Positions 10,035-22,041 of a DNA stretch of 64,000 nt are shown piece by piece. How positions within the stretch are numbered: the stretch's first letter is position 1; each line of letters opens with the position of its first letter. Under the pieces are notes generated by a model. That model made no database searches. It was given only the letters and a program-made list of their open reading frames with translations, and was not told the DNA's origin. The translations under genes were made by a program, and so were the position numbers. The DNA comes from Azospira inquinata. GTDB taxonomy: Bacteria > Pseudomonadota > Gammaproteobacteria > Burkholderiales > Rhodocyclaceae. Where the stretch lies: the NCBI RefSeq assembly GCF_018905915.1, contig NZ_CP064782.1:1302001-1366000 (forward strand), given 5' to 3'.

Positions 10035-11387
10035 TTACAGGGAGGCCAGGAAGCGCAGCAAATCCTCCCGGCCTCCCCGATCCAGTGCCACAAAGCGCTG
10101 CCGCGCCCGCCGGGCTTCTCCCCCGTGCCAGAGAATGGCCTCCGTCACATTGCGGGCCCGGCCATCGTGGAGCAGGGTGCTGTGCTCGTTGATCTTTTCC
10201 TGTAGCCCCAGGCCCCACAGGGGCGGCGTGCGCCACTCCCGGCCCCCGGCCCGGAAATCCGGCCGGCCGTCCGCCAGACCGAGCCCCATGTCATGGAGCA
10301 GCAGGTCGGTGTAGGGGGCAATGGTCACCTTGGCCAGTTGGGGGAAGGCCCTATGGGCGCCGGTGTGGAGCTCGGGCTGGTGGCACTGGCCACAGCCCAG
10401 GCGGCTAAACAGGGCCTTGCCCCGCATGACCGGCGCCTGATCCTGATCCCGGGGGGCGGGCACGGCCAGGAGGGCCAGATAGGTACGCAGATCTTCCAGC
10501 TGGGCGGCGGTCAGCTCCGGCTCACCCCCGGCGGGGGCCCGACGGCAGGCGGTCTGGCCCGCCATGCAGTTCTGTTCCGGGAAAATGGGGGAGGTAATGC
10601 CCAAATCCCCCCGCATGGCCCCGGCGATCTGCTGGACCAGACTGGGCATATTGGCCTTCCAGCCAAAGCGGCCCACCACGGTTTTGCCCGCCGTGGCGTC
10701 CCACACACGGTTCACCCGGCCCCGCACCCCGTCCGGCTTGGCCGCCCGGGCCCGGGCTTCCAGGTCGGCCACAGGCACCGCCTCCAGAAGCCCCAGGCCG
10801 AATACGGAGGGCCCCACCCGGGGAGAGGTCAGCACCCCGTCCAGGGGCCCGTAGGCCAAATCCACGAAATGCAGGGTCATGCGCCGCAGGGGCACCCGGG
10901 TGCCGTCTCCCAGGGTTACCGGCGCCAGTTCCTGCCAATGAACATCCGCCCGGCCTTCCCCGGGGACGCCGGGAATGCCTTCCTCGTTGAGTTGATCCCC
11001 GTAGGCCGGATGGGGCTTGGGTCCCCCGTGGGGCCCCCGGCCCGGCACGGAAAGGCGCACCAGCATGGACTGCATGCGCTGCTCCGGCCCGTCCGGTGCC
11101 TTGCCCCGGCCCTCCTTGGGGTGACAGGAAAGACAGGCCAGCCGGTTGTAGAGAGGCCCCAGCCCATCCACCGTATCGTCCTTGGCGGGGGCCACTACCC
11201 AGTCCTGGCGAAACAGGCTGCGGCCCCGAAGAAAGGCCTGACGCTGGCTTTCGCTCAGCCCGGGCAGGGGCTTGGTATAGGCTTCCCGACTGTCGTCCGC
11301 CACGGTCCCGCCGCCCCAAGCGGCGAGAGGAGGCAGGCCGGCCCCAGCCAGCAAGGCCAGGGCCCCCAAACGTTTGAAATTTTTCAT
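10035..11387 (-). CDS. Di-haem oxidoreductase-like protein (DUF1111)
   Basis: This 450-residue exported protein belongs to the DUF1111 di-haem family, often labelled thiol oxidoreductase or putative peroxidase. Residues 1-25 are a signal peptide, MKNFKRLGALALLAGAG then LAAWG. Two c-type haem sites are visible, CLSCH at residues 85-89 and CGQCH near residue 350, the latter after MRGKALFSRLG. The ATG overlaps the stop of the binding-protein gene (ATGA). The frame is open 81 codons further upstream, but that part is a shadow. In other bacteria the family is linked to periplasmic metal uptake; here it would act with the upstream receptor and binding protein. Redox substrate unknown. Confidence 0.85.
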   Translation of the reverse strand: MKNFKRLGALALLAGAGLPPLAAWGGGTVADDSREAYTKPLPGLSESQRQAFLRGRSLFRQDWVVAPAKDDTVDGLGPLYNRLACLSCHPKEGRGKAPDGPEQRMQSMLVRLSVPGRGPHGGPKPHPAYGDQLNEEGIPGVPGEGRADVHWQELAPVTLGDGTRVPLRRMTLHFVDLAYGPLDGVLTSPRVGPSVFGLGLLEAVPVADLEARARAAKPDGVRGRVNRVWDATAGKTVVGRFGWKANMPSLVQQIAGAMRGDLGITSPIFPEQNCMAGQTACRRAPAGGEPELTAAQLEDLRTYLALLAVPAPRDQDQAPVMRGKALFSRLGCGQCHQPELHTGAHRAFPQLAKVTIAPYTDLLLHDMGLGLADGRPDFRAGGREWRTPPLWGLGLQEKINEHSTLLHDGRARNVTEAILWHGGEARRARQRFVALDRGGREDLLRFLASL

Positions 11388-12727
11388 ACGCCCAACTCCT
11401 TGAGGGCCTGGTCGGCCTGGGCCCGGCGTTGGGCACAGGCGGCCCGCCAGGCCGCCTCCACGGCGGTCACCGGGGATTCGTCCCCTTCCACCCGGTCCCG
11501 ATAGGCCGCCAGCAAGGCCGGATCGGCGGCCTGGGCCTCGCTCAGGGGCGGCACCCCCAGCAGCCGGGAGACATCCGCCAGGGCCTGGGGCCCGGCTCCC
11601 CGCTCCCGGGCCAGCCGGGTACGCCGCCACAGGTCCGCCTGTTGCCCCTGGGGCTCGATGAGCATTTGCTGGAACAGGGCAGCCACCAGGGAGAGCCGAT
11701 CCCGGGTGCGGGGCCCGTCGTAGTCATAGGCCCCCTGGGCCGCGGCCTGGAAGGGCCGGTGGTAGTCCGCCGGCAGCCCCTCATAGACGGTGGGGCGTAC
11801 CGGCAGTTTGCGGATGTCCCCATGGGTGAGGAGCTTTTGTCCGGTTTGGGACAAAACAAACTGGACAAAGGCGGCGGCCCCGTCGCCATGGGGGGCGGCG
11901 GCGGTCACGGCAATCTGGGCCGGGTTAATGCCCCCGTGGGTCGGATAGACGAAGCGAATGGGGGCTCCGTTGGCGATGGCGGACTGGACAAAAAAGTCGA
12001 TGGACAGGCCTACTGCGGCCCGGCCTTCTGCCACCTCGTCCCCCACAAAGGTGGCGCCCCGATCCACCAGGCGGGACTGGGCGGCAATCTGGCTCCACAG
12101 GGTCCAGCCCTCATCCCAGCCATAGGCCTGGAGCACCAGATCCACCATTACCGGGGCAAACCCCACCCGGGCCGGGATGGGCAGGGCGATACGCCCCGCC
12201 AGCCGGGGATCGGCCAGATCGCGCCAGTCCCGGGGCAGGGGCACCCCCAGTTGCTTGAGTAGGGGCTCGTTACAGGCGAAGCCGTAACCCGCCATTTCCG
12301 TGGCCGTATAGGTGGCCGCCGAATTACGCAGCTCGGTCTTACCGATGTGGTCGGGCAGGCCTTCCAGAGCCACGGGCAGGGGGCGCCAGGCCCCTTCCTG
12401 GTGGAGGCGGGCGAAATTCCGGGGGGAGGCTGACCAGTACACATCCACCCCGCCCTGGCCCGGTTGTTCCAGGTAAGGCAGGGCATCGTGGGGCATGCGC
12501 CAGATGAGCTGGAGCCGGTACTGGGGATAGGCCTGTTCAAAGGCCGCCTCAAAGCGGGACAGCACCTCATCCGGATAGGCGGTGAGCACCACCACCGGGG
12601 TGGGTTTGGTCGCCGCCCAGAGGGGCCGGGCGGCCAGGGCCAGGGCACTCACCCCCAGGGTTTGCAAGGCCCGACGCCGATCGGGGCGAAAAACCCGGGA
12701 GGTAAGGCTAGGAGAAAATTTGGACAT
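11384..12727 (-). CDS. Periplasmic substrate-binding protein, ABC/iron-like
   Basis: This 447-residue protein starts with a Tat-like leader (DRRRALQTLGVSALALAARPLWA), so it is likely exported folded. The mature part looks like an extracellular solute-binding protein of the ferric-iron class: VVVLTAYPDEVLSRFEAAFEQ, VDVYWSASPRNF, YGFACNEPLLKQLG and LADPRLAGRIALP. No permease or ATPase gene is in the operon. ATG 12727 is preferred because GAGGAAG sits just upstream; a GTG at 12739 overlaps the receptor stop. The ligand is unknown. Possible ModE control suggests molybdate or a metal chelate, while the family suggests iron. Confidence 0.8.
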   Translation of the reverse strand: MSKFSPSLTSRVFRPDRRRALQTLGVSALALAARPLWAATKPTPVVVLTAYPDEVLSRFEAAFEQAYPQYRLQLIWRMPHDALPYLEQPGQGGVDVYWSASPRNFARLHQEGAWRPLPVALEGLPDHIGKTELRNSAATYTATEMAGYGFACNEPLLKQLGVPLPRDWRDLADPRLAGRIALPIPARVGFAPVMVDLVLQAYGWDEGWTLWSQIAAQSRLVDRGATFVGDEVAEGRAAVGLSIDFFVQSAIANGAPIRFVYPTHGGINPAQIAVTAAAPHGDGAAAFVQFVLSQTGQKLLTHGDIRKLPVRPTVYEGLPADYHRPFQAAAQGAYDYDGPRTRDRLSLVAALFQQMLIEPQGQQADLWRRTRLARERGAGPQALADVSRLLGVPPLSEAQAADPALLAAYRDRVEGDESPVTAVEAAWRAACAQRRAQADQALKELGV

Positions 12728-12735
12728 GGACTTCC

Positions 12736-14727
12736 TCACAGGGGGGCGTTGAACTGGACGAAGAAGGTGCGGCCTTCCTCGTAAAAGCCTTCGCTATAGG
12801 CGTAGAGGCGGTCGAAGAGATTGCGGATGCCCGCTTCCACCACCGTGCCGTTGCCGAAGCGGTAGCCGGTCTTCAGATTGGCCACGGCAAAGCCGTGGGC
12901 CACCTGGCTGCCGTCCGTGGAGGAATAGCGATAGGAGGAAGCTTCCACGCTGCCCGTGGTGCTCCAGGCGCCATGGTGCAAGGTGCCGAAGGAGAAGAGC
13001 TTGTTGCGGGGGGTGTCGGTGAGCCGTACCGTGGGATCGGATAGATTCACCCGGTCCAGGTAGGTGTAATTGCCCCCCAGATCCCAGGGCCCCAGGCTGC
13101 CGGAGAGGGACAGTTCCACCCCCTTGGCCTCCGCGTGGCCCACGTTCTGCATCTGGGTGCAGGGCGGGGTGGAACAGGCGGTGGGCTCGATGCGCACGGA
13201 CTGGATCAGGTCCCGGATGTCGCTATAGAACAGATTGGCTTCGCCCAACCAACGTCCGGCCAGGAGATCGCTGTAACCCACTTCGTAGTTATTGGCCCGC
13301 TCCATTTTCAGGTCCGCGTTGGGAATGGCGGTACCCATGCGGTAGGAGTAACGGTCCTTGATGGTGGGGAAGCGGCTTTTCCGAGCCATCGTGGCGTGCA
13401 GCTTGCCGGTCTCGGAAGTCTTGTAGAACAGGCCCAGTTGCAGGTCCGTGGCCGAGTTGTCGCTGGGTTTGAAATCCGACACCACCCCGGTTTTGCTGTT
13501 GTAGTCCTGGGCTTCCAGGCTTTCCCGCCGGGAGAAGGCCACGCCTCCCACCAGGGAGAGGCGTTCGCCCAACTTCTGGGTATCTTCAAAGGCCACGTCC
13601 TGGGTGCGGTCCTTGAAATGGCGCACCGGCTCCCCGGCGTTGTGTTCCCGGTGCACGTCCTCCTTCCAGTGGTAGGCCACCTTCAGCACATTGCTGGCGC
13701 TCAGGTCCAGATCGTCTTCCACGCTGGCCCCGTCCGTGTAGTCGTTGTACCAACTCTTGAAGGAAGACTTGAACTTCATGGAGTTGTAATTGCTGTTGTC
13801 GAAGGCGAACAGGGAATTCCGGTAGGTATCGTGATAGACCTTGAACTTCAGGGTCTGGCGCTCAAACCGGGTACTGGAAATGAAGTACAGGCTGTCCTTA
13901 TCCCAGTAGGGCCATTGCCAGTAGCGGGGCGTCTGACCGGCCACCGTGCCCGCATAGGGGGGCGTGCCCTTCACCCCATGCTGGTTGATGTAGTTGATGC
14001 TGTATTCGTCCGTGGCGTTGGGGGTGAAACCCAGCTTGAGATTGACCTTGCCGTCCCGGTTGTAGCTGTTGTTCCGGTCCCCCCCGTCTTCCCCCGGGGC
14101 TCGGGAAAAGCTGTCGGGCAGGCGGAAATATTCCTGATCCAGATAGGAGGCGCTGGCCTGGAAGTACCAGGAGCCCTGGTTACTGCCCACATTGGCGTAG
14201 GCCCGGTAGCCGTTGCCCTCCCCCTTGTCCGTGAGGGTGAAACCGCCCCCCACTTCCCCCTCGAAGGCTTTAGTGGGCCGCCGGCTCACCAGATTAATGG
14301 CGCCCCCCAGGGTATTGGGCCCGTAGGCCAGGGAACTGAAGCCCTTAGAAACCTCGATGCGGGACAGGTCAAAGGTGTTGAAACGACCCAGATCCACATA
14401 GCCGTCATAGGGCACATACACCGGAATGCCATCCACGAAGACCGGCACCTGGCGCAGGTCAAAGCCCCGCACATAGGCCATCTGCTCGTTGCGGGCCCCC
14501 ACCTTGCTGATATTCACCCCGGGCAACAAATCCAGGGCCGTGCCCACGGTTTCCCGGTCATGCAGGCGCATTTCCTCCAGGTCCACCACGGCGGAGCCGG
14601 GAGCTACCTCCTGGAGGGGGGAACCGTTAACCTGCACCTCCCCCAGGGTAAATACCGGCTCATCCGCCCCCTGGGCCCCGTTCAGCAGCAGGCTCCCCAA
14701 GAGGCCTACCCATATTTTCCGTTCCAT
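12736..14727 (-). CDS. TonB-dependent outer-membrane receptor
   Basis: This 663-residue receptor has a signal peptide (MERKIWVGLLGSLLLNGAQGA), a TonB-box-like FTLGEVQV and a plug domain with AYVRGFDLRQVPVFVDGIPV and EVSKGFSSLAYGPNTLGGAINLVSRRP. A beta-barrel with repeated aromatic strands ends in FFVQFNAPL. The ATG at 14727 restores the signal peptide; the longer frame from 14817 lacks one. It is the first gene of a three-gene operon (receptor, binding protein, di-haem protein) with overlapping stops and starts. Two ModE-like boxes lie upstream at 14771 and 14941. Substrate unknown. Confidence 0.9.
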   Translation of the reverse strand: MERKIWVGLLGSLLLNGAQGADEPVFTLGEVQVNGSPLQEVAPGSAVVDLEEMRLHDRETVGTALDLLPGVNISKVGARNEQMAYVRGFDLRQVPVFVDGIPVYVPYDGYVDLGRFNTFDLSRIEVSKGFSSLAYGPNTLGGAINLVSRRPTKAFEGEVGGGFTLTDKGEGNGYRAYANVGSNQGSWYFQASASYLDQEYFRLPDSFSRAPGEDGGDRNNSYNRDGKVNLKLGFTPNATDEYSINYINQHGVKGTPPYAGTVAGQTPRYWQWPYWDKDSLYFISSTRFERQTLKFKVYHDTYRNSLFAFDNSNYNSMKFKSSFKSWYNDYTDGASVEDDLDLSASNVLKVAYHWKEDVHREHNAGEPVRHFKDRTQDVAFEDTQKLGERLSLVGGVAFSRRESLEAQDYNSKTGVVSDFKPSDNSATDLQLGLFYKTSETGKLHATMARKSRFPTIKDRYSYRMGTAIPNADLKMERANNYEVGYSDLLAGRWLGEANLFYSDIRDLIQSVRIEPTACSTPPCTQMQNVGHAEAKGVELSLSGSLGPWDLGGNYTYLDRVNLSDPTVRLTDTPRNKLFSFGTLHHGAWSTTGSVEASSYRYSSTDGSQVAHGFAVANLKTGYRFGNGTVVEAGIRNLFDRLYAYSEGFYEEGRTFFVQFNAPL

Positions 14728-14770: not shown

Positions 14771-14794
14771 CAATATGTTGTTGGATATATAACG
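14771..14794 (-). promoter_or_regulatory. ModE-like operator A, before TonB operon
   Basis: Read on the minus strand the site is CGTTATAT-N8-ACATATTG. It shares its layout with the site before modE (CGTTGTAT-N8-ACATATTC) and with the E. coli modA operator as I recall it (CGTTATAT-N8-ACATAACG). It lies 44 bp upstream of the receptor start codon, well placed to repress. Confidence 0.6.
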
Positions 14795-14940
14795 ATTGTC
14801 GGAATGCGGGATTCCAAGGGCCCTTTAGCGAAGGCCGTGCCAGGGCCTAGCCATCCGTTATATTTTCAAGGAAACAACCAGATTTGGCGGGGCTTCGGCC
14901 ATCCCACCCCCATTGACAGCCCCGGGTCAGCAATGCAACA

Positions 14941-14964
14941 CGATGTATCTTTTCGTACATAGCG
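14941..14964 (+). promoter_or_regulatory. ModE-like operator B
   Basis: The plus strand reads CGATGTAT-N8-ACATAGCG, again 8-N8-8. The right half differs from the E. coli half-site ACATAACG at one base. It lies 214 bp from the receptor start and 231 bp from the ModE-like gene, so either or both could respond. Confidence 0.5.
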
Positions 14965-15194: not shown

Positions 15195-15986
15195 ATGTCC
15201 CACTCTCCCTCCACCCTCCTGCCCTCCCCCGCCCTGGCTGCCGGTTGGCCCAATCCGGCGGCCTGCGATGGGGAACACGAACGTCTGGCCTGGCTGGAGC
15301 GGGCCGTGCGGGCCAACGGCATGCTGCCGGTGCCGGCGGCGGAGAGCGGCTCCGCCCGGCGAGCGGTCCAGGAAATGAATAATCTGGCGGGGGAAAGTAT
15401 TGCGGAATGGGTGGAAGGGGACGTGGGCTGCGGCCTGCGCCTGACCTATCGGGGACGCCGCCTGGCAGTGGCCCTGGTGGCCCTGCGCCAGGAGCAGGAC
15501 CGGATGCTGGAACGGTTCGGCGAGCACTTCGCCGACGACCTGCGCCTGCTGGACCGGGTGACGGTGCGCACCAGCGCCCGCAACCAGTTTTTCTGCCGGG
15601 TGGAACACATTGCGGAACAGGGCATTCAGGACCGGGTCACCCTGCGCCTGCCCGGAGGCCAGGCCCTGCGGGCCAGCGTTACCCGCAACAGCGCCCAATC
15701 CCTGGGCCTGACCCCGGGCCAGGAAGCGGTGGCCCTGATCAAAGCCTCCTCCATGCTCCTGGTGGGCTGCGGCGACGGAGAGGATTACAGCGACTACAAC
15801 CGGCTTTGCGGCCGTATTTCCCGCCTCCAGCGGGACGCGGACATGACCGAGGTGTGCGTGGAACTGGGCGCCGGAGTCACTGCCGTGGCGGTCATGGCCA
15901 ACGCCCTGGCCGCCAATCTGAGCCTGGGGGGTAATAGCACCCTGGCCTTCCGCCCCTCCGCCGTGATCCTCGGCGTGGTGGCCTGA
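15195..15986 (+). CDS. ModE paralogue with degenerate DNA-binding region, two Mop domains
   Basis: This 263-residue protein aligns by eye with the nearby ModE. Residues about 58-112 (AVQEMNNLAGESIAEWVEG...LRLTYRGRRLAVALVALRQEQDRMLERF) match the ModE wing and linker helix. The preceding helix-turn-helix is shortened and altered: ModE has RLLEAIDRHGSISQAAKAVPLSYKA, whereas this protein has WLERAVRANGMLPVPAAESGSAR. Two molybdate-binding Mop domains follow (TVRTSARNQFFCRVEHI... and LCGRISRLQRDADMTEV...). It probably binds molybdate, but DNA binding is doubtful. It may be a storage protein or a co-regulator that pairs with ModE. Confidence 0.8.
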   Translation: MSHSPSTLLPSPALAAGWPNPAACDGEHERLAWLERAVRANGMLPVPAAESGSARRAVQEMNNLAGESIAEWVEGDVGCGLRLTYRGRRLAVALVALRQEQDRMLERFGEHFADDLRLLDRVTVRTSARNQFFCRVEHIAEQGIQDRVTLRLPGGQALRASVTRNSAQSLGLTPGQEAVALIKASSMLLVGCGDGEDYSDYNRLCGRISRLQRDADMTEVCVELGAGVTAVAVMANALAANLSLGGNSTLAFRPSAVILGVVA

Positions 15987-17135: not shown

Positions 17136-17957
17136 TCAGCACACGGAAAAATCCACCTGCACGTCCCGGGGCGGCGCCATATAGGGGGCGGAGGACACCA
17201 GCACCTGGGCTCCGGCGGCCACATAGGCGGCCCCGTTGCCCGCGTGGATGCCTCCAGCGGCGGCCAGCCGGGGCGTCAGCCCCTCCGCCGCCAGAGCCTG
17301 ACGGCAGGCGGCGATCTGCTCGGGGAAAAACTTTTCCAGCTGCAAAACATCGGCCCCGGCCCGGGCCCAGAGCAGGGCCTCGTCCTGGTTCTTCACCTCC
17401 ACCACCACTTTTTTCTCCGGCTGGCGCTGTTGCAGCCGGGCGATGCATTCCCGGGGCTCTTCCGAGAGAAAGAGCCGGTGTTCGGGAAAGACCAGCAGGG
17501 TTTCGGAGAGGCCCAGGCGGTGCATGACCGCGCCCCCGGCAGCCACGGCCTTGGCCGCCAGAGCCTTGGTGCCCGGGGGATTTTTCCGGGTGCAGGCCAC
17601 AGGCACGGGGGCGGCCACCCGCACCAGTTCCGCCGCCCCGGTAGCCAGGCCGCTGGCCCATTCCACCAGGATCTGGGCGGTTTTCCAGGCCAGATGCAGG
17701 GAACCGGCCGGGCCCTCGGCCCGCAGCAGCACCTGGCCCCCGGGAGCATCCAGGCCAGTGCCATGGACTAACTCCGCCTCCGCGCCGGCCAGCAGAAAGA
17801 GGCGTACCGCCTCTTCCACGCCGCACACCCGCATGGCCTGCCGGGCGGAAAACACCAGACGGCCCCGGCACCCGGCAATGCCCAGGGCCTGGGTGGTCAA
17901 ATCCCCATAAGGGGCATCCTCCGCCAGGAGGGCGGTTAATTCCCCGTCCGTCAGCAC
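17136..17957 (-). CDS. modD: ModD, NadC-like protein of molybdate operon
   Basis: This 273-residue protein resembles quinolinate phosphoribosyltransferase and matches the ModD subgroup found in mod operons. LLAEDAPYGDLTTQALGI at the start, CTRKNPPGTKALAAKAVAAGGAVMHRLGLSE in the middle and LQLEKFFPEQI...AAAGGIHAGNGAAYVAAGAQVLVSSAPY at the end are family features. GTG 17957 is chosen because the family begins at this point; an ATG at 18023 would overlap the upstream gene by 34 bases. The exact reaction of ModD is not established; its place here argues for a link to molybdenum rather than NAD synthesis. Confidence 0.85.
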   Translation of the reverse strand: MLTDGELTALLAEDAPYGDLTTQALGIAGCRGRLVFSARQAMRVCGVEEAVRLFLLAGAEAELVHGTGLDAPGGQVLLRAEGPAGSLHLAWKTAQILVEWASGLATGAAELVRVAAPVPVACTRKNPPGTKALAAKAVAAGGAVMHRLGLSETLLVFPEHRLFLSEEPRECIARLQQRQPEKKVVVEVKNQDEALLWARAGADVLQLEKFFPEQIAACRQALAAEGLTPRLAAAGGIHAGNGAAYVAAGAQVLVSSAPYMAPPRDVQVDFSVC

Positions 17958-17989
17958 ACAGCGGTTATCCCCGAAGCGAGGGGGGCAAT

Positions 17990-18373
17990 TCAGTGGGGGG
18001 AAAACAGATCTTTCAGCTTGCATAGTAGTTTGGTCGGATTAAAGCGGGGATCGGGCAACACCTCCCCGGCCACCACCTTGGCCAGGGCCCGACCGGGATC
18101 GGTTTCCCCGGTGAGCAACACCTGGGCGCCCCGCTTGGCCATGTGGCGTAAAAAGCCGTCCCCGGCGCTGGCGGCAATGACCACCCCCATCCCGTCCAGG
18201 GGATGGGGCTGGGCGTCGTCCGCGTAGTGGATGACCTGTTCTTTTTCTAGACTGAGCCGGGTCGGCCCGGGCAGGGGCTGGCCCGGCTGGCAGTCGTAAA
18301 TCAGCCATTGCCGGGCTTGACCCGCATGTCCGGCAACGGTGGCGAAATCCTTGGTGGCGATGGCGATTTTCAT
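17990..18373 (-). CDS. NifX/NifB C-terminal-like dinitrogenase cofactor-binding protein
   Basis: This 127-residue protein has the dinitrogenase iron-molybdenum cofactor-binding fold: MKIAIATKDFATVAGHAGQARQWLIYD, then MGVVIAASAGDGFLRHMAKRGAQVLLTGETDPGRAL. Related domains (NifX, NafY, NifB C-terminus) carry NifB-co or FeMo-co. The ATG at 18373 is the conserved start; the longer frame to 18448 adds a non-family leader. It lies between modC and modD in the molybdate operon, a position that ties molybdate uptake to cofactor assembly. It ends in a basic KLLCKLKDLF tail. Confidence 0.8.
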   Translation of the reverse strand: MKIAIATKDFATVAGHAGQARQWLIYDCQPGQPLPGPTRLSLEKEQVIHYADDAQPHPLDGMGVVIAASAGDGFLRHMAKRGAQVLLTGETDPGRALAKVVAGEVLPDPRFNPTKLLCKLKDLFSPH

Positions 18374-18489: not shown

Positions 18490-19632
18490 TCAGGCCAGCA
18501 GGGCGACGGCCTTGATCTGGGCCCAGACCCGGGCGCCGGTGCGTATGCCCAGCTGATCCCGGGAGCGGCGGGTGATCCGGGCCAGCAGGGGCGTTCCCCC
18601 CGCGTCCAGGCGCAGCAGCACGTGGGCTGGGGTGTCGGCTGCGCTTTCCGCCACCACGGTGGCGGCCAGCACATTGAGTATGGAAGTGTCCTCCGCCCGA
18701 TTCAGGGTCAGGCTCACGTCCCGGGCCCGCACCTGAAAGCGCAGACGGCGGCCCAGCTTCACCCCGTCGTGGGCCACATGGACCGCGCCCCCGGGGAAGT
18801 CGATGCGCACCAGGCCGTATTCCGGGTCCAGGGCCGCCACCGTCCCTTCCACCACCACCCCGGCCTCGTCCCCCAGGGCCAGGGGCAGGTCCAGGCGGGC
18901 CAGGGTTTCCTTCAGGGGGCCGCTGGCCAGCACCTGGCCCTCGGCTAGGAGCACCAAATGGTCCGCCAGCCGGGCCACCTCATCCGGGGAATGGCTCACG
19001 TAGAGCATGGGAATATCCAGCTCGTCGTGAAGTTTTTCCAGGTAGGGCAGAATTTCCGCCTTGCGCTGGTGATCCAGGGCGGCCAGGGGCTCATCCATGA
19101 GCAACAGGCCGGGGCTGGTAAGCAGGGCCCGGGCAATGGCCACCCGCTGGCGCTCGCCCCCGGACAGGTGGTCCGGGTAGCGACCCAGGAGATGGCCGAT
19201 ATCCAACAGGCCCACGGCCTGATCGAAAGCTACCCGCCGATCTGCCCCGGGCACCCGGCGCTGGCCGTAAGCCAGGTTGGCCTGGACCGATAAATGGGGA
19301 AAGAGGCTGGCCTCCTGGAACACATAGCCCAGGGGACGCCGGTGGGTGGGCAGGAAATGGCGGCCTTCCTGCCAGACCTGGCCGTTCACCGCCAGATAGC
19401 CCCCCGGGTGCCGCTCCAGCCCGGCAATGGCCCGCAGCAGGCTGGTCTTGCCACAGCCGGACTGGCCAAACAGGGCGGTAACGCCCCGGCCGGGCAGGGT
19501 CAAATCCACATCCAGGGAAAAATCCCCGTAGCGGATGGCGAAGCGGGCCACCAGGCCCTCCCCCGCCTCTGTGGAGGCCACCGTGCCGCTCCGGGCTTCC
19601 CGGCTCAGAGCGGCTTCCAGGTTAGCGCCCAT
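18490..19632 (-). CDS. modC: Molybdate ABC transporter ATP-binding protein ModC
   Basis: This 380-residue ATPase powers molybdate import. Walker A is [16 protein letters not shown], the signature loop [15 protein letters not shown], Walker [13 protein letters not shown], and the switch histidine lies in VSHSPDEV. The C-terminal TOBE/Mop domain ([28 protein letters not shown]...[13 protein letters not shown]) probably binds molybdate. The N-terminus is about 25 residues longer than usual before the ABC fold, so a later start is possible. It overlaps modB by 11 bases. Confidence 0.95.
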
Positions 19633-20299
19633 GGCGCACCCCCGGTTTGAAAACGTACATCACCAGCAACACCAGGAAGGAAAACACCAGCATGCCTCCC
19701 GCCAGCCAGTGGGCCTGGGTGTATTCCAGGGCTTCCACATGGTCGTAAATTTGCACCGACACTACCCGAGTTTCCCCCGGGATATTGCCGCCGATCATCA
19801 GCACTACGCCGAATTCCCCCACCGTATGGGCGAATCCCAGAATGGCGCCGGAAAGAAAGCCAGGCACTGCCAGGGGCAGGGCCACGGTACAGAACCGGTC
19901 CCAGGGGGAAGCCCGCAGGGTCGCCGCCACTTCCAGGGGACGGTCTCCCATGGCCTCAAAGGCGTTCTGCACGGGCTGGACCACGAAGGGCAGGGAATAG
20001 ATCACCGAGCCCACCACCAGGCCGGTGAAAGTAAAGGGTAAGGTGCCCAGGCCCAGGGCCTGGGTGAAGTGGCCCACGGGGCCGTTGGGGCCCATGACCA
20101 CCAGCAGATAGAAGCCCAGTACCGTGGGGGGCAGCACCAGGGGCAGAGCCACCAGGGCGCCCACCGGGCCTTTCCAGGCGGAGCGGGTACGGGCCAGCCA
20201 CCAGGCAATGGGGGTACCCACCAGCATCAGCAGCAGGGTCACCAGGGTCGCCAGGGCCAGGGTCAGGCGTATGGCCCCCCAGTCGTCAGGGCTGAACAT
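19622..20299 (-). CDS. modB: Molybdate ABC transporter permease ModB
   Basis: This 225-residue inner-membrane protein has about five hydrophobic helices and the permease EAA-type loop ([24 protein letters not shown]) that contacts Mod[25 protein letters not shown] opening and [14 protein letters not shown] are typical of ModB. It lies between modA (86 bp away) and modC (11-base overlap). Confidence 0.95.
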
Positions 20300-20385: not shown

Positions 20386-21183
<798 letters not shown>

Positions 21184-22002
21184 TCAGGCGTAAACCGCCA
21201 GAATCACGCTGGAGGCCTTGAACACGGCGCAGGCCTTGACGCCCGGCGCCAGGCCCAGGTTTTCAATACTGTTTTTGGTCACCACGGCGGTGACGCTCTT
21301 GCCCCCGGAGAGGGCCAGGGTGACCTCGCTATTCACCGGGCCGTCGTGGATTTGCACCACCTCGCCCCACAGCTGGTTGCGGGCGGTGATTTTCAGGGCC
21401 GGGTCGGTAATCAGTACCGGGGAGGAGGCTTTGACGAAGGCGAAGACTTCCTTGCCGATGGCCAGTTCCAGGGTTTCCGCCGATTCCCGGGTAATGACGG
21501 CCACCACCTCATGGTCCGCCTCCAGGCGAATGCGCACCTCGAAATCCACATCCCCTTCCCGCAGGCCGACGATTTTCCCGACGAACTGGTTGCGGGCACT
21601 GGTTTTCATGGACAGGCGCCGCATCATGGACTGGAACTTGCGCATGTCCCCGCTCTGCACCTCGTCCATACGCTCCGTCAGCCGGTCCAGGGCATCCTGG
21701 TATTCCTGCTCCATGGCCCGGAACAGGCCGATGATCTTGCGACCGTAGTCGGTGAGCACCGTACCGCCCCCGTGTTTGCCACCGGTGGTACGCACCACCA
21801 GGGGCTCTTCCGCCAGATTGTTCATGGCATCCAGGGCGTCCCAAGCCGCTTTATAGGACAAGGGAACCGCCTTGGCCGCCTGGGAAATGGAACCGTGGCG
21901 GTCGATGGCTTCCAGGAGGCGGATGCGGGTATCCCCAAGGAAGGGGCCGAATTCGGTTTCCAGGGCCAGCTTGCCCACCAGTTTGGCGTTGCTCTGGGGC
22001 AT
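21184..22002 (-). CDS. modE: Molybdate-responsive regulator ModE
   Basis: This 272-residue regulator has a complete N-terminal winged helix (IRLLEAIDRHGSISQAAKAVPLSYKAAWDALDAMNNLAE, then VRTTGGKHGGGTVLTDYG) and two C-terminal Mop domains (TSARNQFVGKIVGL... and TARNQLWGEVVQI...). With molybdate bound, ModE dimers usually repress mod transport genes. The ATG at 22002 fits the family; the longer frame to 22074 crosses a likely operator. It heads the operon modE-modA-modB-modC-NifX-like-modD. Confidence 0.95.
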   Translation of the reverse strand: MPQSNAKLVGKLALETEFGPFLGDTRIRLLEAIDRHGSISQAAKAVPLSYKAAWDALDAMNNLAEEPLVVRTTGGKHGGGTVLTDYGRKIIGLFRAMEQEYQDALDRLTERMDEVQSGDMRKFQSMMRRLSMKTSARNQFVGKIVGLREGDVDFEVRIRLEADHEVVAVITRESAETLELAIGKEVFAFVKASSPVLITDPALKITARNQLWGEVVQIHDGPVNSEVTLALSGGKSVTAVVTKNSIENLGLAPGVKACAVFKASSVILAVYA

Positions 22003-22017
22003 GGCAGATTCCTTACA

Positions 22018-22041
22018 GAATATGTAATGAGTTATACAACG
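22018..22041 (-). promoter_or_regulatory. ModE operator before modE operon
   Basis: The minus strand reads CGTTGTAT-N8-ACATATTC, the 8-N8-8 pattern of the E. coli modA operator as recalled. It ends 15 bp before the modE ATG, consistent with autorepression. Confidence 0.6.

Follow-up and report, generated by a model that had tools for sequence, protein, structure and literature searches.

Known targets of the regulator ModE are modABC, genes for the molybdenum cofactor, and activators of alternative nitrogenases. MolBCA of Haemophilus influenzae is an inner-membrane system, and when molybdenum is scarce its crossing of the outer membrane is usually ascribed to porins. In the mod cluster of Azotobacter chroococcum, the gene Achr_39300 is called a 'TonB receptor potentially for molybdate', and the excerpt that carries this description indicates that the gene is not present in the matching cluster of A. 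vinelandii DJ (PMC4465626). In Pseudomonas aeruginosa, a T6SS-secreted ModA and the outer-membrane protein IcmP have been implicated in molybdate acquisition (PMC8602904). ModE sites have been described in deltaproteobacteria (PMC545781, PMC2700814), and the Geobacter sites predicted and tabulated in the second of these sources include 'several transport systems'. The portions of PMC5343134 and PMC11734730 available to us hold nothing on ModE boxes before TonB receptors, and our literature search, whose partial cover leaves room for an earlier prediction, returned no report of such an arrangement.

Here we describe a locus from Azospira inquinata in which a known regulator and a known class of transporter occur in a conserved pairing, a description of which we could not find. 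Judging from sequence, we consider it likely that the gene set at positions 10035-14727 is a ModE-repressed molybdenum-scavenging unit that provides TonB-driven uptake when molybdenum is scarce. Control of the receptor gene set by ModE as such appears very likely.

Operators and genes of the A. inquinata locus

The window, meaning the whole 64-kb stretch of A. inquinata DNA that was analysed, joins a mod locus to the receptor gene set. The features relevant to this arrangement are given below, where the boxes are scored, in bits, with a model of the ModE consensus as printed for E. coli (PMC545781).

10035-11390, minus strand: di-haem oxidoreductase DHOR, 451 aa (PF06537), with a 7-bp overlap with the end of the binding-protein gene
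11384-12727, minus strand: periplasmic solute-binding protein, 447 aa (PF13343, SBP_bac_6), starting 8 bp past the receptor stop codon
12736-14727, minus strand: TonB-dependent outer-membrane receptor, 663 aa (PF07715 and PF00593)
14771-14794, minus strand: ModE-type box, CGTTATAT-N8-ACATATTG, 44-67 bp 5' of the receptor start codon, 19.2 bits
14856-14879, plus strand: ModE-type box with a weaker right arm, CGTTATAT-N8-AAACAACC, between the other two, 15.1 bits
14941-14964, plus strand: ModE-type box, CGATGTAT-N8-ACATAGCG, 231-254 bp 5' of the divergent ModE-like gene, 19.9 bits
15195-15986, plus strand: ModE-like protein with a TOBE/Mop domain (PF03459), divergent from the receptor gene; TIGR00638 above cut-off, NF007957 below cut-off
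17136-18023, minus strand: modD (TIGR01334, 258.8 bits)
18490-19632, minus strand: modC (TIGR02142, 477 bits)
19622-20299, minus strand: modB, assigned from its position between modC and modA (BLAST cluster c6)
20386-21156, minus strand: modA (TIGR01256, E 3.5e-74)
21184-22002, minus strand: modE, LysR-type HTH and two TOBE domains (TIGR00637 above cut-off; PF00126, PF03459), start at 22002 set by eye
22018-22041, minus strand: ModE-type box directly 5' of modE, 14.8 bits
22207-22635, plus strand: molybdate-binding Mop-type protein, divergent from modE (PF03459, two stretches)

A NifQ gene is also found in the window alongside the mod genes and the Mop gene. In modE, the genome encodes a full-length ModE carrying both HTH and TOBE domains. 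Receptor start codons throughout this work were picked by rule rather than by evidence.

The earlier note on this DNA had placed two boxes upstream of the receptor gene, at 14771 (minus strand) and 14941 (plus strand), and had likened their layout to that of the site before modE. Both were found again. With at most one mismatch, the 8-N8-8 pattern has three matches in the 64-kb window (14771, 14941, and 22018), where 0.09 would be expected; a count of three is not reached in any of 100 shuffles of the window. The box at 14856-14879 is additional to the two boxes of that note. Together, the three box starts lie at equal 85-bp steps, a distance of approximately eight helical turns. At other loci carrying related receptors, two or three boxes are common and their spacing is varied, with 26 bp recurring in five of them (L108, L111, L112, L113, and L114). 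A sigma-70-like site at 14837-14864 on the plus strand overlaps the box at 14856; the shuffles predict 0.2 such sites, and we gave it no weight. A search of the whole window against Rfam at gathering thresholds returned rRNA and tRNA only, and no known RNA element upstream of the receptor gene.

All three boxes are situated between divergent genes, and the direction in which they act is thus not readable from position alone. They might serve only the divergent ModE-like gene, in which case the receptor gene would merely adjoin them and would not be under ModE control. We regard this as very improbable. The box at 14771 is 401-424 bp from the ModE-like gene, against 44-67 bp from the receptor start, and boxed receptors are also found where no ModE-like gene was detected nearby, for example at loci L101, L102, L141, L146, and L172.

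The ModE-like protein encoded at 15195-15986 gave no match to the HTH models TIGR00637 or PF00126 in the two libraries searched. A ModE paralogue of this type may function as a molybdate buffer or as a partner of ModE. Its closest relatives among 150 genomes of the same bacterial family are in G098, G020, and G081.

Conservation of the boxes and receptor controls

Homologues of the receptor at E 1e-60 or better are present in 19 of the 150 genomes of the same bacterial family, A. inquinata included. Eighteen homologous receptors were scored, comprising those of 17 other genomes and the second receptor of A. inquinata, with G058 omitted at a contig end. Seventeen of the 18 have a box of at least 13 bits within 500 bp upstream. 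The exception (G148) has genes running in the same direction upstream, including those for a FecCD-type permease and another receptor, and three boxes precede the latter. Neither of the two same-genus genomes examined has a receptor at E 1e-60, which counts against the molybdenum-scavenging reading.

A scan of named genomes yielded 79 loci from beta-, gamma-, and deltaproteobacteria, Bacteroidota, and others. Peptide patterns taken from the query receptor served to select these loci, which are also related by descent, so the counts that follow are not independent; in addition, L099 of this set is probably the same genome as G115 of the family set. A box of at least 13 bits lies within 400 bp upstream in 49 of 77 named loci (L151, where no ORF was found, and L174, with no upstream DNA, are omitted), and a box of at least 15 bits lies in this interval in 47. 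The count rises to 58 of 77 when boxes of at least 15 bits farther upstream in the locus are also allowed. Boxes of at least 15 bits number 2.19 per kb within the 400-bp upstream interval, compared with 0.051 per kb in the remainder of these loci. When the upstream region of each locus was compared with 100 dinucleotide shuffles of its own, the best box reached p ≤0.05 in 56 of 78 loci (one of the 79 has no upstream DNA), six of these 56 boxes scoring below 13 bits. The 19 of 77 loci without a box, which likewise count against the molybdenum-scavenging reading, include those of Bacteroidota, Chlorobiota, and Acidobacteria and some beta- and deltaproteobacterial loci. Family receptors with boxes of at least 15 bits are present in Chitinophaga, Acinetobacter, and Methylophaga.

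Genes for molybdate transport or sensing often accompany these receptors. Homologues of ModA, ModB, or ModE/Mop are encoded at 43 of the 79 family loci versus none of 26 control loci around other receptors (Fisher p 8e-8, which serves only as a guide given that the loci are related). The control loci, each of 12 kb, also contain no box of at least 15 bits. They come from three genomes and some overlap, and two of them contain relatives of the third boxed receptor type of A. inquinata (see below), in these cases without boxes.

The A. inquinata genome as a whole gives 17 plug-domain matches, 16 of them above the cut-off; the match below it is the third ModE-boxed receptor. Three of these receptors have boxes of at least 17 bits, whereas a 500-bp scan with the consensus model found no box before any of the other 14 TonB receptors, the best score there being 6.3 bits. 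A similar separation is seen in five related genomes, in which none of 27 non-family TonB receptors has a box (best score 10.8 bits) and three family receptors score at least 15.7 bits. This five-genome control covered the 30 of 81 receptor places for which a locus was available; for one of the 27 non-family receptors, the upstream DNA amounted to only 107 bp.

Counting the motif across the genome is less informative. The palindromic pattern with at most one mismatch occurs at five places, where shuffles of the window, extrapolated to the size of the genome, predict 2.0. With at most two mismatches, it occurs 31 times versus 31.1 expected, and a reversed control pattern occurs 26 times. Because the looser count equals that of the shuffles, the number of motifs proves nothing at that level, and it could be argued that the boxes are chance AT-rich palindromes. 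Conservation and the negative receptor controls contradict this reading, which has practically no chance of being correct, and it is on these two lines of evidence, rather than on the genome-wide motif count, that the weight of the case rests.

The five better places all precede fitting genes. Two are boxes of the present locus, two precede further TonB receptor genes, and one precedes a gene for a NifA-family activator. These additional genes, along with those for an Fe-only nitrogenase, are as follows.

Box at C1:500045; L074:8046-10296 (G000:C1:500 kb): second family receptor with its own box, followed by a cytochrome c-molybdopterin-domain protein
Box at C1:197944; L076:7945-12646 (G000:C1:198 kb): third boxed receptor, belonging to a different type, with genes for a binding protein and a FecCD-type permease after it
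L078:7411-7434 (G000:C1:81410-81433): ModE-type box 163 bp 5' of the NifA-family activator gene, with nifE-like and nifH genes close by
L077:14207-18502 (G000:C1:282 kb): Fe-only nitrogenase genes anfD, anfG, and anfK, all above cut-offs, with a nifH-family gene ahead

The binding protein beside the third boxed receptor matches PDB entry 3psa (HI_1472), which we take to be MolA, at E 2e-22; its best match is 4pag at E 1.2e-79. The activator has NifA as its best match, below the model cut-off, and the box before its gene fits molybdenum control of a putative regulator of the alternative nitrogenase. In Azotobacter vinelandii, ModE represses genes of this activator type, namely vnfA1 and anfA (PMC9542535).

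The link between the receptor and the ModE box is strongly conserved, and is seen in Proteobacteria and in some Bacteroidota. The earlier note had taken the boxes to indicate molybdate-controlled expression of a receptor operon in a diazotroph, and had made this depend on conservation of the boxes in related genomes. Its central elements stand, in that the boxes are of the ModE type, are conserved before TonB receptors in the same family and in the named loci, and often have mod genes near them. The tie to diazotrophy falls away: nifH scores above its curated cut-off in nine of the 19 receptor genomes versus 50 of 131 others, and nitrogen fixation is therefore not the common factor of the receptor family. 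The occurrence of the pairing across many distant bacteria suggests a candidate dedicated route for scarce molybdenum through the outer membrane.

Receptor family, partner genes, and cargo

Structurally, the receptor has the architecture of a TonB-dependent receptor, with a plug domain and 22 long strands after the plug in an AlphaFold2 model (mean pLDDT 90.4, pTM 0.90). The best 50 Foldseek matches listed from the PDB are all TonB receptors, at 13-18% identity; among these 50, PirA has the lowest E-value and OprC the highest query-normalised TM-score (0.79, at about 16% identity). The protein falls below the cut-offs for siderophore receptors (TIGR01783, 132.5 versus 223.5 bits) and haem receptors (TIGR01785, 128.2 versus 316.85 bits). 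A W-x-W-P-x-W motif at residues 270-275 is present in all 65 aligned members of the family, namely the window receptor and those of 64 named-genome loci. Among the 17 receptors of the A. inquinata genome, only the two family members carry it. The predicted strands would place this motif in an outer loop.

The genes that accompany the receptor differ among loci. A binding protein and DHOR, as in the window, are encoded at 25 of the 79 named loci. A homologue of a small protein with a molybdopterin domain (PF00174), which at some loci is fused to a cytochrome c domain, is encoded at 24; FecCD-type transporter genes are found at 15 and methyltransferase genes at 17. Of the 79 loci, 61 have the binding protein, the molybdopterin-domain protein, or FecCD, singly or in combination. 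The 26 control loci have neither the binding protein nor the molybdopterin-domain protein, and four of them have FecCD. A radical SAM protein (cluster c38) was considered as a further partner from its presence in two of 20 receptor loci, for which the gene caller was crude and made some antisense calls, but it was dropped from the partner sets on being found in none of the 79 named loci. At two loci (L064 and L072), the family receptor has in its vicinity a second receptor, a FecCD-type transporter, and radical SAM and methyltransferase genes, a group that is a possible chelator-making or cargo-processing set. Three loci from Duganella and Pseudoduganella (L161, L162, and L163) share the order of receptor, molybdopterin-domain gene, and NifQ-like gene.

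On balance, and with limited confidence, we favour the view that these proteins make up a single family of TonB receptors spanning several phyla, of which the A. inquinata receptor represents one branch. The family would be recognisable by W-x-W-P-x-W in an outer loop, devoted to molybdenum, and directly controlled by ModE. Each member would work with one of three interchangeable sets of partners. The first is the binding protein with the di-haem DHOR, the second is the molybdopterin-domain protein (at some loci as a fusion with cytochrome c), and the third is a methyltransferase together with a FecCD-type transporter resembling MolABC. The family would supply the missing outer-membrane step of high-affinity molybdenum uptake, its cargo probably being molybdate itself or molybdenum on foreign or environmental chelators.

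In the A. inquinata locus, we imagine that control proceeds in the following manner. When molybdate is plentiful, molybdate-loaded ModE would occupy the box at 14771, and probably also the two boxes that follow at 85-bp steps. The receptor genes, which are presumably co-transcribed, would then be off, as perhaps would the gene for the divergent molybdate-binding ModE paralogue. When molybdenum becomes scarce, ModE would be released and the receptor made, which with energy from TonB would carry a molybdenum species across the outer membrane. The periplasmic binding protein and the di-haem protein might take up or process this cargo, and the ModABC permease encoded nearby would bring molybdate into the cell.

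Several observations weigh against molybdenum as the cargo. Molybdate is small enough to pass through porins, which makes its need for a TonB receptor less than obvious. Among PDB entries, the binding protein of the window, whose N-terminus looks twin-arginine-like by eye, is distantly similar to binding proteins of the Fe3+ and P5P types and not to ModA. Moreover, genes under ModE control need not carry molybdenum, since ModE also controls activators of molybdenum-free nitrogenases. The main rival explanation is accordingly a receptor that is controlled by ModE but imports another metal needed under molybdenum shortage, such as an iron (or vanadium) siderophore for the switch to a molybdenum-free nitrogenase. 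The Fe-only nitrogenase genes of this genome are consistent with such a role, as is the fact that the nearest PDB relatives of the binding protein are of the Fe3+ type. In A. vinelandii, the expression of three TonB siderophore receptor genes requires VnfA1 and is switched on when molybdenum and vanadium are absent (PMC9542535). However, 10 of the 19 receptor genomes have no nifH above the cut-off, the boxed family receptors of Chitinophaga, Acinetobacter, and Methylophaga speak against a nitrogenase-related role, and mod genes are near more than half of the family loci (43 of 79). We therefore judge import of another metal to be unlikely.

Also to be weighed is a cargo of tungsten or of a molybdopterin-type compound in place of molybdate or a molybdenum chelate. 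ModE binds tungstate too, and the molybdopterin-domain protein has a homologue at 24 of the 79 loci. The neighbours that were classified are mod, NifQ, and MolA-like genes, which argues against such a cargo, although weakly, because tungstate transporters and pterin enzymes lie outside the classification. This alternative seems to us quite improbable.

If molybdenum is indeed what the receptor carries, the form in which it arrives can be narrowed. A molybdophore made by A. inquinata itself through an NRPS is unlikely, because no NRPS condensation domain was found in its genome. The candidates left are molybdate itself, foreign chelates, and complexes from the environment. The same search found no condensation domain in seven of the 18 other receptor genomes. 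Matches at E 0.001 or better are present in 11 of all 19, and in 10 of these genomes they are above the cut-off.

A conserved receptor family under ModE control would supply a gene and a sequence signature for the outer-membrane step of molybdenum uptake. It would also add a cell-surface component to the ModE regulon of many environmental bacteria, nitrogen-fixing or not, and offer a lead toward molybdenum-binding chelates.

Comparison with described systems

The receptor shares its fold with the copper receptor OprC and with siderophore receptors such as PirA and PfeA, with the low identities noted above for the best 50 matches listed. The ModA-IcmP route of P. aeruginosa has an outer-membrane step for molybdate in common with the system proposed here, although the account in PMC8602904, as far as it was available, describes a different mechanism with neither a TonB receptor nor a ModE box. 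Some resemblance to MolBCA is found at the third boxed receptor of A. inquinata, which adjoins a gene for a 3psa-related binding protein and a FecCD-type permease gene. Unlike in MolBCA, these genes follow an outer-membrane receptor, and they lie outside the 10035-14727 gene set.

The closest precedent for the receptor is Achr_39300 of A. chroococcum, likewise a TonB receptor within a mod cluster with a guessed role in molybdenum uptake. We liken the two by description, and a receptor with 54% identity to ours is present in an A. vinelandii record (P0107). A closer match, at 60% identity, is encoded by Azoarcus olearius (P0061). The published remark is a single sentence on one genome and, in the text available from PMC4465626, comes with no operators, family definition, or wider distribution.

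The closest precedent for the control is the ModE regulon of the E. coli type, whose printed consensus (ATCGNTATATA-N6-TATATANCGAT, PMC545781) has the same 8-N8-8 core box as the sites described here. The arrangement of modE, encoding an HTH and two TOBE domains, beside mod genes and with a box before it is likewise shared. The known targets of this regulator are transport genes, cofactor genes, and nitrogenase activators (PMC9542535 for the activators), whereas in A. inquinata three boxes precede the gene set of a TonB receptor.
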